Made by a program: the position numbers and the translations under genes | Assembly: GCA_949290355.1 (NCBI GenBank) | Contig: CASERN010000011.1 | Span: forward strand, 186,001-250,000 | Length of the DNA: 64,000 nucleotides | From: an uncultured bacterium | Lineage (GTDB): Bacteria > Cyanobacteriota > Vampirovibrionia > Gastranaerophilales > Gastranaerophilaceae | Direction of reading: 5' to 3' | Part shown: in pieces, positions 1-18,472 of the stretch | How the letters are laid out: each line of letters begins with the position of its first letter | Position numbering within the stretch: position 1 is the first letter of the stretch | The notes under the pieces: model-generated | Told to the model about the DNA's origin: nothing | The model's database searches: none | Seen by the model: the letters and a program-made list of their open reading frames with translations, nothing else

Positions 1-399
1 AGGATAATATATGATTATCCATCCGGTAAATTGCATGCAGTCCAAATTTTTATATCAGAAACTGAATCTTATGTATTTAGTCCTGACGGTAAATATGTGG
101 ATTATGCACCATATGTAAAAGAAGTTAAAGAAAAAGTTATTAAAAATTGGAAAGTTCCTCCGAGAAAACAGATAGATATTTTAGCTAAAGGACAAAAAGA
201 TTTAATGGTTCAAATGGCTTTGACTTTGGGGCGTGATGGACATGTAAAAAAATGCAGAATCCTTAAATCATCTAAGATAAAAGCTCTTGAAGACAATGCA
301 GGTGCCGCAATTCGTTCTGCAGCTCCTTTCAAACCTTTCCCGCAAAATTTCTTTAATGAAGAACTTGTGATAATTCTAAACTTTAATTTTAGTTTATAG
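1..399 (+). CDS. TonB C-terminal-domain protein, 5' end outside the window
   Basis: The reading frame is open to base 1, so the true start lies upstream; a TTG at 31 is only an internal candidate. The last 80 or so residues have the pattern of a TonB/TolA C-terminal domain: a strand of the form MALTLGRDGHVKKCRILKSS, a helix, then APFKPFP before a final strand. Such domains normally sit in the periplasm and contact outer-membrane partners, with an N-terminal membrane anchor that is missing here. It converges on a second TonB-C-like gene 12 bases away and faces the minus-strand VWA/FHA-like cluster. Domain call by pattern only. Confidence 0.7.
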   Translation, partial: RIIYDYPSGKLHAVQIFISETESYVFSPDGKYVDYAPYVKEVKEKVIKNWKVPPRKQIDILAKGQKDLMVQMALTLGRDGHVKKCRILKSSKIKALEDNAGAAIRSAAPFKPFPQNFFNEELVIILNFNFSL

Positions 400-410
400 A
401 AATATAATTC

Positions 411-827
411 TTAAAAGATCGTAATCTCATAGTTTCCGTTATTGATTTTAAAATTCATACGGATTGTCTCACCGTTATATTCTTTAGGAGGTGGCGAAAA
501 TTTCGGTACGCTCATAAGCATATAATATACAGTGTCATTTAAACTTTTGTTTGATGATTCTTTTGAAAATTTTCTATTTATTAATTTCCCAGTTTTATCT
601 ACAGAAAACTGAATAGAACATTCTCCTGCCCCTTGGATGCTTCCTACTGCAAATTTTGAAAATAATGCTGCTCTTAAATTATTTTTGTATCTCAGCATTT
701 CTGCGCTATTAGGATTATACGCTGTTTTTTGTCTTTCAGTATTAGCTTTGATATTTTTTGTTTCAGTCGATTTAGTAGTATTTTGAGAATTATTATTTCT
801 TTTGTCAGCATTATAATTGCCTGGCAT
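411..827 (-). CDS. TonB-C-like protein lacking its own anchor, possibly the 3' part of a frameshifted gene
   Basis: An Asn/Thr/Lys-rich, probably disordered N-terminus of about 45 residues precedes a TonB-C-like domain (CSIQFSVDKTGKLINRKF, then VPKFSPPPKEY). There is no signal peptide or membrane segment, which is odd for this domain. The gene overlaps the end of the upstream minus-strand gene (811-1200) by 17 bases and no AGGAG-like site precedes the ATG at 827. The frame stays open for only a few codons upstream. Together with the upstream product (zinc ribbon, membrane helix, linker) it would make one complete anchored TonB-like protein, so a frameshift is plausible; translational coupling is the alternative. 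Confidence 0.6.
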   Translation of the reverse strand: MPGNYNADKRNNNSQNTTKSTETKNIKANTERQKTAYNPNSAEMLRYKNNLRAALFSKFAVGSIQGAGECSIQFSVDKTGKLINRKFSKESSNKSLNDTVYYMLMSVPKFSPPPKEYNGETIRMNFKINNGNYEITIF

Positions 828-1200
828 ATTCAACAGGCGTTATTTTTTCCGTCTGTTGCTCAATTGTTTTTGGTTGATATATAGGAGTGCTATCCCATAT
901 TTTATCAATACTAGGAATATTTTTTGTTACAGCTTGTTGTTTTTTATTTTGAGTTTGTGGAACATTTTTGTGATTATTATCCCCAATAGGAATAAGCCAT
1001 ACTATTGCGGATAAAATTATACATAATATAAAAAATACTTTTGATATTATGTCATTTTTTTGTTCAACTGTTAATGTCTTTTTCTCTTTTATATTTGATT
1101 TAACTGGTTGATCTTCAATAAAATCAAATGTGTTATTCCCGCAATCGCAGTACTCAACTTTATTTTTATATTCTGCTTTACATTCTTTACATCTGTACAT
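811..1200 (-). CDS. Zinc-ribbon membrane protein (129 residues)
   Basis: The product begins MYRCKECKAEY and continues VEYCDCGNN, giving two CxxC/CxC pairs typical of a small zinc ribbon. One membrane helix follows at about residues 53-71, then a Gln/Lys/Thr-rich linker. The ribbon would be cytoplasmic and the linker periplasmic. It lies 7 bases after the small membrane gene at 1208-1387 and overlaps the TonB-C-like gene downstream, in the cluster read right to left from 4636. It may be the N-terminal part of one longer protein split by a frameshift near 811-845. Function unknown. Confidence 0.65.
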   Translation of the reverse strand: MYRCKECKAEYKNKVEYCDCGNNTFDFIEDQPVKSNIKEKKTLTVEQKNDIISKVFFILCIILSAIVWLIPIGDNNHKNVPQTQNKKQQAVTKNIPSIDKIWDSTPIYQPKTIEQQTEKITPVEYARQL

Positions 1201-1207
1201 AACAAGA

Positions 1208-1387
1208 TTATCTTACCACAAATAATCCTAATTTATATATAATGAAAACTATTAACGCTGAAATAACCATTAGTATAATTATTGCGGTTTGTCTGATTAT
1301 ATCATATTCATTTTTTGCTTTTATAAATTTAATTACAAATGGAGTTTCTATTATTAAAAATAGAATAATGCATATAATTTTAAACAT
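1208..1387 (-). CDS. Small two-helix membrane protein (59 residues)
   Basis: An ATG at 1387 is preceded by AAGGAG at a good distance, inside the end of the previous small gene. The product has two hydrophobic stretches (about residues 2-20 and 36-57) separated by a charged KAKNEYD turn, so it should form a membrane hairpin. It lies between two minus-strand genes of the same cluster, 7 bases before the zinc-ribbon gene. Its antisense strand also stays open, but that frame has no ribosome site. I recognise no family. Confidence 0.55.
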   Translation of the reverse strand: MFKIICIILFLIIETPFVIKFIKAKNEYDIIRQTAIIILMVISALIVFIIYKLGLFVVR

Positions 1388-1528
1388 TTATTTACTCCTT
1401 ACAAAAATAATATTATCCAATTGAATTGTTTTGTGCATTATAGGCTTTATTTTAATAACAGTAATTGTGGTTATTAAAAGTGCTAAAATGCTTATTAAAG
1501 ATATGAGTACAATTTTTTTTATATTCAT
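1388..1528 (-). CDS. Small single-helix membrane protein (46 residues)
   Basis: The ATG at 1528 shares one base with the TAA stop of the preceding gene (TAATG), the classic arrangement for translational coupling. The product has one membrane helix at about residues 5-25 followed by a short basic tail. It ends immediately before the ATG at 1387, and its last codons carry the ribosome binding site of that gene. Operon position and coupling are the main evidence that it is real; no family recognised. Confidence 0.5.
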   Translation of the reverse strand: MNIKKIVLISLISILALLITTITVIKIKPIMHKTIQLDNIIFVRSK

Positions 1529-2325
1529 TAGTATGTAACCCTTTCATAATCAGAAAAATCATCTGGGGTTGAATATCTTTCTTGTGTCCCTATTAAGAAA
1601 ATTCCTGTTACAACAGTGGATGTCCTTTGTGTTCCTCTTGGGAAATTTAATATAGTTTTTTTTTGCAACCCAGCTATAGCAGGTTTTACTCTTTCTCTTG
1701 CGATATTCATGAAATCAGGATTTGAGCATTCTACTTTAATGTTAGAAACATTGCCGAATTTATCAACAACAAATGTGAATAAAAACATTGTCCCAAGTGG
1801 AGCATAATCAATTTTTGAATCTCTCATTATTTGATTTTGAATATTGCTTCTCCATCTATTCCAAGCGATGATTTCTTCTTGTTCAGTCATGTATGGATTA
1901 TTGTATTTAGGATTTTTTGCAACTTCTGTTTTTTGTTTTTTTACCTGTTTTGATTCAGTTTGAGTTGGTTGATTATTTTCTGTTTGGTCAATGATTCTTT
2001 GTAATAATTCTAGTTGAGTTGTATCGTCTTGTATTTTATTGCTTTGAGTATTAGTATTTTGTGTTTTTTGTATATTGGCAAAATTTTTATTGTTTTCAAT
2101 GTTTATATTTTTATTATTTGTTGTATTTTGTATGTTTTTTGTAGAGGTTTGTGCAGCAGAACTTACAGGGATATTTTTGTTAGTGATTAAAGAATCGCTA
2201 ATCCTTGTAAGTTTAAAATTTGCATCCTCAATAATCATTGGCTTATGAATTTCAGGATGAAATTTTATCGTCAAAATAGAAACTATAATAAATGCGATTA
2301 TTACAAGTATTTTTAGAAAATCCAT
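1528..2325 (-). CDS. TonB-like membrane-anchored protein (265 residues)
   Basis: One N-terminal membrane helix (about residues 4-22) is followed by a long Asn/Thr/Gln-rich linker, then a folded C-terminal region from about residue 145. That region has the TonB/TolA pattern TFVVDKFGNVSNIKVECS, then a helix and a final strand. The layout of anchor, extended linker and TonB-C-like domain matches energy transducers that reach across the periplasm. Neither ExbB/ExbD-like partners nor a receptor are visible in the window. It starts 2 bases after the FHA-like gene and is coupled to a small membrane gene by TAATG. Confidence 0.65.
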   Translation of the reverse strand: MDFLKILVIIAFIIVSILTIKFHPEIHKPMIIEDANFKLTRISDSLITNKNIPVSSAAQTSTKNIQNTTNNKNINIENNKNFANIQKTQNTNTQSNKIQDDTTQLELLQRIIDQTENNQPTQTESKQVKKQKTEVAKNPKYNNPYMTEQEEIIAWNRWRSNIQNQIMRDSKIDYAPLGTMFLFTFVVDKFGNVSNIKVECSNPDFMNIARERVKPAIAGLQKKTILNFPRGTQRTSTVVTGIFLIGTQERYSTPDDFSDYERVTY

Positions 2326-2327
2326 AA

Positions 2328-3941
2328 TTAATCTTTATCAACTTTTGCTAATAATTCATCACAAGCATATATGTCAAATTTTGTTTGACTTAACATTAAA
2401 GTTTCTGCAATTAACAGAGATGTTGGTACAAGAGCTGCAACTAAACTTAAAAACATTCCTTGCATATCTCCGCCTATTTCTGTCATAAAATATGAAACGT
2501 TCATTGCAAATTCTATAAATATAATTGCACAAGCAATTGCAAGTGATCTGTTTTTTTCGGAGTTTAGTCTTCTTACACCTTCAAGTCCGTATATTGTAAC
2601 ACCGTGATGTTGATAATCTGAAAATCCGTCTTGTTTAATTACTTGAGAACCTTGTACTTTTTTTGTACAGAAAAATGCATTTACAAAAGAGAAAAATGCA
2701 AAGATGATTAAAAATGTTGCAAGAGTTAAAAATACCGGGCTTATTCTTAATCCTGAAATTCTTACCCATCCTGCAGCTTCAGGGAAACACATTGCAAGAG
2801 TATTTGATACACCGTAAGCCAAAAATGGTGCTGTTAAAATCCCTATTATAGTTTCTCCTACGGATTTTAATTGAAGGTTAAACATTTTATCTTTTATGTA
2901 TTGTAATTTTGAATTACTCAAACTGTTAATATATCTCTCAATCCATTGTCTGTATGATTTTATAACGCTTTCAAAATCTTCTCTGTATTCGTATTTATCA
3001 AGTGTAATAGTCCACTCTGTTCCGTTACACTTGAAATATCCGCAGCTTATAGCTAAAACCGCCATTATGCCTGAGAAAAAGAATGAAATAAAGATTGCAA
3101 ATGTCATAAAATCATTCAAATTCATATAATATATAAGGTTTACGACATATATACCAAGGACAAAAATCAATGAAAAAATTAACATAAAACTTTGTCCCAA
3201 TTTAGCTGATTTTGACATTTCTTTTTGGATATTGCTTTGCAGATACAAGTAAATTCCTTGTTTTAAAAGTAAGCAAATGCCGTAAATTAAAATTGTATAT
3301 ATCCCCCAAACTTTTATGTTAGTAGGCATATGTAAAAAGTTCGCAGATTCTTTAATTTCAAGTCCCATAAGGTAATTTGATACGCCGAATGCGCATACCA
3401 TAGAACTTAAAAACATTGCTATATGTAGGAATATACTAGTTTTGGTATTTGTAGAAAGTTTTTGTTTTAAATCATTAATATGGAATGCTACTTGTTTAAT
3501 TATAGCAACACGAGCATTTTCCAAATCCTCTTTCTGCTTTTCAAGTTTTACTTTTGTAACGGCATTTACATCTTTGCCATATAGTCCTTTTATATCTTCT
3601 TCTGTAAAATCTTCTTTCCCGATTGATGTTACAGTTTTAGAATGATTTATCGGAGCTTCTGCTAATAATTTGATGCTTAAAAACTCATTTGTACCTGCAA
3701 ACATAAGTTTACATATATTGCTTACTTCAACTCGTTTTATAGGTTGACCTTTAAATAAAACTTTATCACTTTTAAAAGTATTGATTATAGAGCATCTATT
3801 TTCTGCAACTTTATATTCAAGAGTCAGCAAAACATCATATCCAAGTTTTAAAACAATATCACAATTTGGGTTTGTTCCTACATTTATAACGTCTTTATTA
3901 AATACTTTTTCACCTTGTGAAGTTGATATTATTATAGCCAT
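2328..3941 (-). CDS. FHA-like N-terminal domain with eight membrane helices (537 residues)
   Basis: Residues 1-95 resemble a degenerate forkhead-associated fold: INVGTNPNCDIVLK stands where FHA domains have IGRxxxxDIxL, and KVLFKGQPI resembles the later VxVNGxxI strand. The phosphothreonine-binding Arg and the Ser-x-x-His motif are not evident. A charged helical stretch (about 112-165) follows, then about eight membrane helices near 169-193, 211-234, 251-273, 278-302, 363-385, 401-424, 466-487 and 496-517. It lies 20 bases after the VWA gene and 2 bases before the TonB-like gene, so the three are probably made together. No transport family is recognised. Confidence 0.6.
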   Translation of the reverse strand: MAIIISTSQGEKVFNKDVINVGTNPNCDIVLKLGYDVLLTLEYKVAENRCSIINTFKSDKVLFKGQPIKRVEVSNICKLMFAGTNEFLSIKLLAEAPINHSKTVTSIGKEDFTEEDIKGLYGKDVNAVTKVKLEKQKEDLENARVAIIKQVAFHINDLKQKLSTNTKTSIFLHIAMFLSSMVCAFGVSNYLMGLEIKESANFLHMPTNIKVWGIYTILIYGICLLLKQGIYLYLQSNIQKEMSKSAKLGQSFMLIFSLIFVLGIYVVNLIYYMNLNDFMTFAIFISFFFSGIMAVLAISCGYFKCNGTEWTITLDKYEYREDFESVIKSYRQWIERYINSLSNSKLQYIKDKMFNLQLKSVGETIIGILTAPFLAYGVSNTLAMCFPEAAGWVRISGLRISPVFLTLATFLIIFAFFSFVNAFFCTKKVQGSQVIKQDGFSDYQHHGVTIYGLEGVRRLNSEKNRSLAIACAIIFIEFAMNVSYFMTEIGGDMQGMFLSLVAALVPTSLLIAETLMLSQTKFDIYACDELLAKVDKD

Positions 3942-3961
3942 TAATTACCTCATTTGTTATT

Positions 3962-4636
3962 TTATCTTCCTAATGCATGAAGAAATTTTCTGATTGATTT
4001 GTCAATATTTTGTTCAGGGGATACTATGAGATGATTTTCTCCTAAAACAGGAGTCAATTTTTCTTTAACCAGATCAAGTTTTGCAGGATGTGCATCTAAA
4101 AACATCATAGAAATATCCGGTGCATATTTTTTTACATTCTGAACATTTTTAGGTAATGTATTCCAATTAATTTGTTTTTCTATTGCTCCCTCGTTTTCAA
4201 GGTCTCCAATTACAACAACTGCAGGAATATAACCATTTTTTTTCATTGTAAGTGCATGAGAAAATGCTTTTTTCAGTCCTACCCCATATGCTGTGCCATA
4301 ATCTTTTTGATCATATTTAGTAAAGGCATCCATGGATTTTGTAATAGTACTTCCATTCATAGGACCACCTTCATATATCAAATAAGCATCTTCTGATACT
4401 CTAAGAATTTTGATTTGATCTTCAGGATCTAAAAGATTACAAATTTGTCTTAATATTTTTTTCTGTTCAGGCAGCCTTTTTTGGTTAGAAGCGGATGAAT
4501 CTATTACAAATATTACAGCAGCGGGATGAAAATCATCTACTTTAATCTGCTTTAACCCTGTCCAGATAAACTTTAATGCAACTGATAGTATTAATATTAA
4601 TAAGCCTAATGTAACAAATCTTTTATTTAACTTCAT
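3962..4636 (-). CDS. Membrane-anchored von Willebrand factor A domain protein (224 residues)
   Basis: An N-terminal helix (about residues 8-25) anchors a VWA domain that opens with VIFVIDSSAS, giving the metal-site pattern D46-x-S48-x-S50. A later strand, VVVIGDLENEG, fits the domain's second metal loop. VWA domains bind protein partners through a metal ion; facing the periplasm is the likely topology. It is the first gene of the minus-strand cluster. The start has no Shine-Dalgarno site: a TTATAT box ends 7 bases before the ATG, with TTTGCA 17 bases further up, so the message may be leaderless. Confidence 0.75.
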   Translation of the reverse strand: MKLNKRFVTLGLLILILSVALKFIWTGLKQIKVDDFHPAAVIFVIDSSASNQKRLPEQKKILRQICNLLDPEDQIKILRVSEDAYLIYEGGPMNGSTITKSMDAFTKYDQKDYGTAYGVGLKKAFSHALTMKKNGYIPAVVVIGDLENEGAIEKQINWNTLPKNVQNVKKYAPDISMMFLDAHPAKLDLVKEKLTPVLGENHLIVSPEQNIDKSIRKFLHALGR

Positions 4637-4689
4637 AAATAAAATATAACATATTTTTGTTATATCTGCAAATGGAAATATTAAGTATT

Positions 4690-4714
4690 AAAAAAGGGGC
4701 TTATGCCCTTTTTT
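4690..4714 (-). terminator. Hairpin terminator after the decayed small gene
   Basis: A 9-base-pair stem (AAAAAAGGG with CCCTTTTTT) encloses a 7-base loop and ends in T on either strand. It ends at the stop codon of the 4714-4975 remnant and would also work in the other direction. Confidence 0.75.
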
Positions 4715-4975
4715 TATGAATTTTTAAATTCCTTTATAAGTTTATTTATTTCTGCGTCTGTCAATAATGTTTTGGTTATTTCTTTATTCGCATTTAACTT
4801 TTTAAGAAAGTTTTCTTGTGATATTGGGTCAAGTTTACAAAAATCTGTTTTTGCCGTAAATTTTTTTCATATTCTTATCTGATTTATTTAGTTCTGCTTC
4901 TTTTAATATTGTTTTCGCTTTATCAAATTTAGCTTTAGGGGCTTCGCCTCTTAGACCTTGTCTAATATTAGCCAT
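4714..4975 (-). pseudogene. Small gene broken by a one-base frameshift in an A run
   Basis: From the ATG at 4975 the frame reads MANIRQGLRGEAPKAKFDKA and onward but stops after about 46 codons. Removing one A from a run of seven near 4863-4869 joins it to a second coding-like frame (FTAKTDFCKLDPISQENF and onward) that ends at 4714 beside a terminator. The restored product would be about 86 residues, basic and helical. Either a real loss of function or a homopolymer error explains this. No family recognised. Confidence 0.5.
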
Positions 4976-5078
4976 TATTAATAGTTCTTGCTACTGGTTG
5001 GTTTTGTTCAGCAATTTGTTTAAGCTGTGTGCGTCCTAATGTGATTCGACCTGCAGACCTTCTGTTTTTGGTAACATG
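4968..5078 (-). pseudogene. Remnant reading frame without a start codon
   Basis: A coding-like frame on the minus strand (containing RITLGRTQLKQIAEQNQP) runs from a TAA at 5079-5081 to a TAA at 4968-4970. It has no ATG, GTG or TTG start. Its stop overlaps the first codons of the frameshifted gene below it, as in a coupled pair, so the two may be relics of one small operon that lost its 5' end. Weak evidence. Confidence 0.3.
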
Positions 5079-5105: not shown

Positions 5106-5906
5106 TTAATAACTTTCGTATGGAGAAACGTTTAATGGTTGATTAAGTCTTAATTCAATTGTGGTTCCATTTGGGATGTCAACATCTTCTCCTCGTTGTA
5201 ATGCTCCTCTAATTCCTCCGCCTGCAGCTCCAAGTCCCCCATAAATTAACATATTTCTTCCCCAATCATCTCCTCCTCCTAAAGCTGTAAAGGCTGCACC
5301 AATAAGCATACTGCCAACTGCTCCGATTAAAACATCTCGAGTCATTTTTTTTGTACGTTCATTTTTAGCTTCCATATATATTTTTTCTGTAGAAATATCA
5401 ATCATATTCCCATCTGGTGTCATTATTTGATTAAAGCTTATTTCTAATGCCCCGCTTCCATATGCATAACCAGCATTTTTTGCGTTGATTGCATTGCCAT
5501 AGACAAGACTGCCTTTTGGAGCTATGAGTGTTCCGTTATATACAAAGTCTTGTGTTAATTTTGCGATTAATCTATCATTTTTTTCTAGGCTCCCTGAATT
5601 TATTCCGGAGTCAAAGCTTACTAAAAAACTTGTACCGGTTGGAATTTCTGTAACATTGCCAAATAGGATTTTAGGCTTTGGTTGATATGTGTTGTTTATT
5701 ACTTCTTCTTCAAGAATTTGAGGGGTATTAGTATTTTGTATTTGCTGTCTTTTTTTAGAAAAATTGTCTTTTATAGGTTGACTTATCACAGGTTGAAATT
5801 TATTTCTGTCAAATTCAGCTTGAGCTTCGTCAGAAAAATCATATTCTGCAAGAGCAGGAAGAGTTAAGAGTTGAAAACATAATAATAAAATTAAAATCTT
5901 TTTCAT
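5106..5906 (-). CDS. Exported protein with a VirB10/TrbI-like domain (266 residues)
   Basis: A clear signal peptide (MKKILILLLCFQLLTLPALA) leads to a charged linker and then, from about residue 78, a beta-rich region: LFGNVTEIPTGTSFLVSFDS, then NDRLIAKLTQDFVYNGTLIAPKGSLVYGN-like segments. This resembles the C-terminal barrel domain of VirB10/TrbI proteins, where a pore helix is expected; a Gly/Ala-rich hydrophobic stretch at about 192-230 could fill that place. There is no N-terminal inner-membrane anchor and no other type IV secretion gene here, so a stand-alone envelope role is more likely than conjugation. Family call tentative. Confidence 0.5.
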   Translation of the reverse strand: MKKILILLLCFQLLTLPALAEYDFSDEAQAEFDRNKFQPVISQPIKDNFSKKRQQIQNTNTPQILEEEVINNTYQPKPKILFGNVTEIPTGTSFLVSFDSGINSGSLEKNDRLIAKLTQDFVYNGTLIAPKGSLVYGNAINAKNAGYAYGSGALEISFNQIMTPDGNMIDISTEKIYMEAKNERTKKMTRDVLIGAVGSMLIGAAFTALGGGDDWGRNMLIYGGLGAAGGGIRGALQRGEDVDIPNGTTIELRLNQPLNVSPYESY

Positions 5907-17635: not shown

Positions 17636-17776
17636 ATTGAATATATATAATTATTAAAAAATTTGTAAGGCTTTGTATTGGGTTTTGAGGTTTCTTGAAA
17701 CTATTTAAGGATTGTAAAAAAACAGAACCTCTGTTATAATAGAAATGTGAGCAAACATTTTTGCGATGGAGAGTTT

Positions 17777-18472
17777 ATGAAAAAATATTTTGGATTCACC
17801 TTGGCTGAAGTATTGATTACATTAGGAATAATAGGTGTTGTTGCGGCTTTAACTATTCCAACATTAATAAAAAATCATCAAAAACATGTTTATGAAACTA
17901 AAGTTAAACAAACTTACAGTTTGGTCTCAAATGCGCTAGAGGCCGCCAGAGCTGATTATGGTGATCCTAAATATTGGGATACTTTTATGAATTTTGATAC
18001 TTCTGACCCTGATGAGTATAATAAGCAGCATCAAGCTCATATGAGAAATGTCGCTGCAAAATATTTTAAACCTTATTTAAAAGTTATTGATGAAGGTGAA
18101 GGGTTATATTTATATTATATGACTTTAAATAATGGAGTTACACTTACTTTTTATCCTGATGGCGGAGTAACCCCTGATGGAAGTACTTTTATTCAATCAA
18201 GAATATATATAATAGGCAGTTTAAACCATAACCATTCTACATTTATGGATGCCTCAAGAGATTATTCAAGAAAAGACTTTTTGATGGAATATTCTACTTA
18301 CACAAATTATCAACTTAAATTTTTCAATTATAATAATTCTAAGACCAGAGATGATTATATAAATCATTCTTCATACGGATGCAACAGCAATATTCAAAAG
18401 AATAGAAGATTATATTGCGGTTCATTACTTTTCCATGATGGATGGAAAATCAAAGATAGTTATCCTTGGTAA
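17777..18472 (+). CDS. Type IV pilin-like protein with prepilin leader (231 residues)
   Basis: The N-terminus MKKYFGFTLAEVLITLGIIG is a class III prepilin leader: cleavage after Gly-6, then methylatable Phe and Glu at +5, and a hydrophobic helix running through VVAALTIPTLI. The rest is a polar head with cysteines near the C-terminus (YGCNSN, LYCGSL) that may form a disulfide. Start chosen at 17777, after GGAGAG; an upstream in-frame GTG would spoil the leader. TATAAT lies about 40 bases upstream. It is not next to the pilus assembly genes and may be a minor pilin or a secreted pseudopilin. Confidence 0.85.
   Translation: MKKYFGFTLAEVLITLGIIGVVAALTIPTLIKNHQKHVYETKVKQTYSLVSNALEAARADYGDPKYWDTFMNFDTSDPDEYNKQHQAHMRNVAAKYFKPYLKVIDEGEGLYLYYMTLNNGVTLTFYPDGGVTPDGSTFIQSRIYIIGSLNHNHSTFMDASRDYSRKDFLMEYSTYTNYQLKFFNYNNSKTRDDYINHSSYGCNSNIQKNRRLYCGSLLFHDGWKIKDSYPW

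Follow-up and report, generated by a model that had tools for sequence, protein, structure and literature searches.

Known envelope transducers of the TonB/TolA type pair with motors of the ExbB/TolQ family, and an SxxxH motif at the transmembrane (TM) anchor of TonB serves the contact with the motor. In Myxococcus, the vWA adhesin CglB reportedly takes part in gliding, and GltJ, considered here as a lead only, combines a zinc finger, a GYF domain and a TonB C-terminal domain (CTD). In the Agl-Glt system, which has a TolQ/R-like motor, GltG carries both an FHA domain and a TonB CTD (PMC3169522). A survey published in 2025 described inner-membrane-tethered vWA proteins encoded beside tolQ-like genes as putative periplasmic force transducers (PMC12204202), and ArnA and ArnB of Sulfolobus form a regulatory FHA and vWA pair acting on archaellum expression (PMC6509490). 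Here we analyse an operon on the minus strand of a 64,000-nucleotide stretch (the window), part of the 1.85 Mb genome of an uncultured bacterium of the family Gastranaerophilaceae, which comprises gut-dwelling, non-photosynthetic relatives of cyanobacteria. The nearest named relatives of the genome are metagenome assemblies of Candidatus Gastranaerophilales ("Melainabacteria"). The operon joins TonB/TolA-type arms with a vWA protein and with a polytopic protein, here called FHA-8TM, that fits no described family. No TonB-dependent receptor is evident in the genome of this gut bacterium.

A conserved, family-restricted gene neighbourhood

The core of the operon consists of six tightly spaced minus-strand open reading frames (ORFs) between nucleotides 411 and 4636, whose coordinates, proposed by an earlier sequence-only reading of the window, were borne out. 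That reading stopped short of a TrbI/VirB10-like gene that precedes VWA in many relatives, and is extended here accordingly.

5106..5906, minus strand: TrbI/VirB10-like protein with a likely signal peptide and a glycine-zipper region
3962..4636, minus strand: VWA, an N-terminal TM anchor and a vWA domain with a complete metal ion-dependent adhesion site (MIDAS), predicted periplasmic
2328..3941, minus strand: FHA-8TM, a degenerate FHA domain (residues 1-96) and an eight-TM domain
1528..2325, minus strand: TBa, 265 amino acids (aa), with a TM anchor, a PxMHK-type juxtamembrane motif, a disordered linker and a TolA-III/TonB-like CTD
1388..1528, minus strand: 46-aa single-TM protein sharing the TM/KPxMHK motif of TBa
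1208..1387, minus strand: 59-aa protein with two predicted TM helices, an optional member
811..1200, minus strand: ZTB part 1, a CxxC...CxC zinc ribbon, a TM segment and the start of a periplasmic linker
411..833, minus strand: ZTB part 2, the remaining linker and a TonB_C domain, shifted to the +1 frame with respect to part 1

Genes were called and labelled in 20 relatives and then at 80 loci on GTDB contigs, some of which are cut by contig ends. The order was constant, namely [TrbI-like]-VWA-FHA-8TM-TBa-[small TM proteins]-ZTB, and the neighbourhood is strongly conserved in some 30 genera of the family. VWA adjoins the FHA-8TM gene in 79 of the 80 loci and TBa does so in 77, ZTB lies within 1.8 kb of it in 67, and a TrbI-like gene occurs on the same strand no more than 3.5 kb upstream in 45. 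Conservation to this degree far exceeds what chance would give.

Of 146 genomes of the family, 102 gave a match to FHA-8TM, as did 200 of 382 genomes sampled from the class and 101 of 292 sampled from the phylum, and none of the matches listed for the class- and phylum-drawn genomes lay outside the family. In four of the 102 family genomes the match is just a stand-alone FHA-like ORF of about 100 aa, with neither the eight-TM protein nor VWA (L052:6798-7097 in G096; also G038, G068 and G134), and these four were not counted as carriers. Between the resulting 98 genomes with full-length FHA-8TM and the 48 others the contrast is sharp: VWA is present in 98/98 and 0/48, so that its presence is identical to that of full-length FHA-8TM in all 146 genomes, and TBa is present in 93/98 and 0/48 (Fisher p 1e-39 for co-occurrence, a value that ignores relatedness). 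The co-occurrence in relatives that the sequence-only reading had put forward as a check on its proposal is thus evident both by locus and by genome. Several genera include carriers as well as non-carriers, which fits gain or loss of the genes as one unit; no plasmid-borne homologues were found.

Pfam, NCBIfam and PADLOC contain no family for the FHA-TM protein or for the operon, Pfam offers none for TBa or the small proteins either, and our literature searches returned no paper describing this gene combination, in agreement with the earlier statement that no described system has it. An anti-phage defence reading was set aside, PADLOC having given no match.

Component proteins

An AlphaFold2 (AF2) model of FHA-8TM, built from 58 sequences, has a mean predicted local distance difference test (pLDDT) of 80 and a helical membrane domain that we read as eight TM helices. 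Residues 1-96 adopt an FHA fold (VIA Z 13.1 and root-mean-square deviation 2.1 over 92 residues against 6ccd). At the position expected to hold the phosphothreonine-binding Arg, after a Gly, all 58 rows have T, S or N, and no conserved His follows (positions assigned by reading the sequences); the domain is therefore degenerate, as had been suspected together with the eight helices. E363, E477, N481 and E513 are invariant in the 58 rows, E477 and E513 lying within predicted TM helices. The membrane domain had also been called channel-like, for which we found no support: it has no consistent Pfam family, and the PDB structure search matched only the FHA domain, with nothing above background for the TM part, which was barely tested since FHA matches fill the list. 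A PDB sequence search with the FHA profile gave no match. Homology of the TM domain to ExbB, TolQ or MotA was rejected, hhalign returning only short chance alignments (probability <1%), and an internal duplication of two four-TM halves, hinted at by GVSN in TM1 and TM5, was weak (probability 11.7%) and is not claimed. FHA-8TM is a polytopic FHA-TM protein of no described family.

VWA scores above the Pfam cut-off for VWA_2 (31.5 bits against 27), and its MIDAS residues D46, S48, S50, T115 and D145 vary little or not at all, which, with the N-terminal TM segment, upholds its description as a membrane-anchored protein with an intact DxSxS site. In the AF2 model of TBa a TM helix and a disordered linker lead to a CTD with pLDDT mostly >90. 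This domain (residues 147-256) resembles TolA-III (VIA Z 8.6 against 1lr0) and the Helicobacter pylori TonB CTD (Z 7.0 against 5lw8), and TBa is accordingly the anchored TonB-C-like protein that had been predicted. As for the two tiny membrane proteins also predicted, the 46-aa ORF is a conserved gene, with 18 homologues of 43-54 aa in the same place that are matched by the TBa hidden Markov model; the 59-aa protein is optional, with homologues in place in three of the first 20 relatives (L034, L035 and L036).

In most relatives one ORF of roughly 200-430 aa encodes the whole of ZTB, from zinc ribbon through TM segment and linker to TonB_C. The ribbon residues C4, C7, C18 and C20 are invariant in 14 relatives, Pfam TonB_2 is matched by 13 of 14 family members (E 2.1e-7 for part 2 in the window), and the ZTB profile matches the H. 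pylori TonB CTD at E 5e-4. The zinc-ribbon/TonB-C "pair" of the sequence-only reading therefore contains both domains as described, its two genes being halves of one gene separated by a +1 step. Among 25 congeneric genomes in which the region was read, five share the two-ORF form (the window, L060, L180, L181 and L192), the second ORF always being +1. Four of these five have a common motif at the step:

819..828, minus strand: TATGCCAGGC motif at the ZTB frame step

The remaining split genome has an A9 run there instead. The motif is single-copy in the genome, and we dropped the idea of a repeated or recombination site. The split genomes do not form one clade on an FHA tree of 26 rows, on which well-supported branches force at least three changes, and recurrence of the same split in several independent assemblies makes sequencing error unlikely. 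In the sister pair L181 and L192, both split, the downstream TonB_C part shows nonsynonymous (dN) and synonymous (dS) divergences of 0.05 and 1.2, so that it has probably been under purifying selection since the split if the two share it by descent. The split may reflect recoding, separate initiation or recurrent mutation.

Pfam TrbI was matched by the TrbI-like protein of the window at E 2.6e-5, short of the cut-off, and in 8 of 14 relatives. A secreted paralogue precedes the TonB, ExbB and ExbD genes described below. Between its gene and VWA (4689-5060) lie short broken ORFs and a terminator-like hairpin, suggestive of a decayed gene. At the other end a further gene converges on the operon:

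1..399, plus strand: 3' end of a gene for a secreted TonB_C protein (TonB_C E 1.2e-10)

It is the end of a 269-codon ORF (L003:13590-14399) that starts upstream of the window and encodes a likely signal peptide. The sequence-only reading was right about its domain and its orientation, and had before it the 3' end rather than a full gene. Being conserved in near relatives only, it is probably a neighbour outside the system, and the "several TonB-C-like proteins" of that reading come down to two arms, TBa and ZTB, with a third protein that is probably separate. The genome holds eight TonB_C matches, several of them on proteins that look secreted and have no other membrane anchor (L145:5834-6556, L146:5414-6241 and L147:5387-5797; loci L135-L142). 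We also observed pilin-like proteins with type IV prepilin N-termini (window 17747-18472 and L145:6886-7110) and a block that by eye resembles flagellar-type export genes (FliR/FliQ/FliP/FliO/FliN-like; L143:12709-16681).

A putative trans-envelope complex and its alternatives

No gene for ExbB, ExbD, TolQ or TolR was found in the FHA-8TM operon in the window or in the relatives' loci, as had been noted for the gene cluster at 1-4636. The host has one ExbB, its single MotA_ExbB-family gene, located elsewhere in the genome in an operon of the order TrbI-like-TonB-ExbB-ExbD-ExbD (L143:4539-8168, G000:C8). Congeners share this layout, as do genomes from other families of the order (L197-L211), and nearly all sampled members of the genus have one ExbB per genome. 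An SxxxH motif is present in 10 of 11 ExbB-linked TonBs, versus 1 of 50 TBa and 1 of 14 ZTB proteins, which makes it unlikely that the arms dock on ExbB. Nor is there a classical receptor for them to serve, since the Plug domain of TonB receptors (PF07715) is absent from the host genome, control genomes being positive. The two operons run parallel, TrbI-like-TonB-ExbB-ExbD-ExbD versus TrbI-like-VWA-FHA-TBa-ZTB, and by analogy FHA-8TM would take the place of the motor.

The proposal that we favour, at roughly even confidence, is that the products form one inner-membrane-based, family-specific trans-envelope complex, a transducer or a tether, in which FHA-8TM occupies the ExbB/ExbD position. A positive-inside reading suggests that the FHA domain, the zinc ribbon and the C-terminus of FHA-8TM are cytoplasmic and that vWA and the CTDs are periplasmic. 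FHA-8TM would then serve as an inner-membrane platform whose FHA domain faces the cytoplasm and may bind another protein without recognising phosphothreonine. TBa and ZTB, with the zinc ribbon of ZTB on the cytoplasmic side, would reach into the periplasm as TolA/TonB-type arms, together with the anchored vWA domain and its intact metal site. The arm CTDs might contact a partner in the periplasm or outer membrane, for which the TrbI/VirB10-like protein is the probable candidate wherever its gene is present. The whole could connect the two membranes, mechanically or with an energy input, much as TonB-ExbBD or Tol-Pal does. A trans-envelope complex had already been hypothesised for these genes, and the conserved neighbourhood, the TonB/TolA CTDs on both arms and the failure of any known system to claim the locus speak for that core idea, which is retained here minus the channel-like label and with a longer list of partners.

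Several observations weigh against this proposal. Two paralogous operons lack VWA (L046 and L047), so VWA is not always needed there; the TrbI-like gene is near the operon in only 45 of 80 loci, some of them cut; and with ZTB split in the host genome, one of the arms may be missing there or depend on recoding. The absence of profile similarity between FHA-8TM and ExbB leaves a motor role unsupported by homology, and genes may be gained and lost jointly through linkage, without contact between their products.

A stronger version, in which FHA-8TM would itself be an inner-membrane motor of a new, ion-driven class that has no sequence kinship with ExbB, TolQ or MotA and moves the arms and vWA by means of E477 and E513, seems to us unlikely. 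We attach similarly low probability to a structural envelope tether or sensor that takes no energy input, in which the arms and vWA would link the membranes or peptidoglycan while FHA and zinc ribbon report the state of the envelope to the cytoplasm. Such a device would suit the predicted cytoplasmic position of those two domains, the long flexible linkers, the intact MIDAS and the lack of a recognisable motor, but invariant E477 and E513 within predicted helices would be unusual for a passive scaffold. An Agl-Glt-type machine for gliding or focal adhesion, with the genome's ExbB-ExbD acting in trans as its motor, is quite improbable: the parts list does resemble Glt, in which GltG unites FHA and TonB CTD (PMC3169522), but these domains sit on different proteins here, no TolQ/R-like motor was found in the operon, the arms lack SxxxH and the one ExbB sits in a TonB operon of its own. 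Finally, an accessory module of the host TonB-ExbBD system, with no platform of its own and sharing ExbB-ExbD and the VirB10-like partner, would account for TrbI-like proteins beside both operons and for the one ExbB per genome, but is very unlikely given arms that lack the TonB SxxxH motif and an ExbB operon that extends to other families of the order, where no FHA-8TM appears among the matches listed.

Comparison with described systems

The favoured complex resembles TonB-ExbB-ExbD and Tol-Pal (TolA-TolQ-TolR), with which it shares a TM anchor, a flexible linker and a CTD of TonB/TolA fold, present here on two proteins. With its TrbI-like partner, the operon also parallels the Ton operon of the host. 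It differs from them in having neither ExbB, ExbD, TolQ nor TolR in the operon, neither SxxxH on the arms nor a receptor plug, and FHA-8TM and vWA instead. Like the vWA families of the 2025 survey (PMC12204202), it has a TM-anchored vWA protein genetically tied to a polytopic inner-membrane protein; unlike them, its polytopic neighbour is FHA-8TM, free of ExbB/TolQ profile similarity, its TonB/TolA arms are separate proteins, and no mid-TM Asp or SHLS motif was seen in its vWA protein.

With Myxococcus Agl-Glt it has in common an FHA domain, TonB CTDs and vWA parts within one envelope system, and the zinc ribbon-TM-linker-TonB CTD order of ZTB recalls GltJ, a likeness that we treat as a lead only. 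In contrast to Agl-Glt, no AglRQS-type motor was found with the core, the only MotA_ExbB-family gene being in the TonB operon, and FHA lies on an eight-TM protein with the CTDs on separate ones, rather than both on the bitopic GltG. On the features compared, the operon thus belongs neither to Agl-Glt nor to the vWA force transducers; a similar mode of action is nevertheless reasonable.

ArnA-ArnB likewise partners an FHA with a vWA protein, although here the membrane is predicted to separate the two domains and FHA lacks the phosphothreonine residues; of canonical FHA domains the fold is present, but the phosphothreonine-binding Arg (GR) and the Ser/His positions are not. The TrbI-like domain of the upstream secreted protein is shared with VirB10/TrbI of type IV secretion, which has an inner-membrane anchor in place of the likely signal peptide, and no conjugation or type IV secretion genes were noticed in the inspected neighbourhood. 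Should the proposed complex be a transducer, there must be another kind of motor or else TonB-type arms that need none, and the VirB10-like proteins encoded beside TonB genes across the order would gain a first concrete role. The operon, restricted to one family and with no description found, is best seen as encoding a TonB/TolA-type trans-envelope system with a polytopic partner of no known class.

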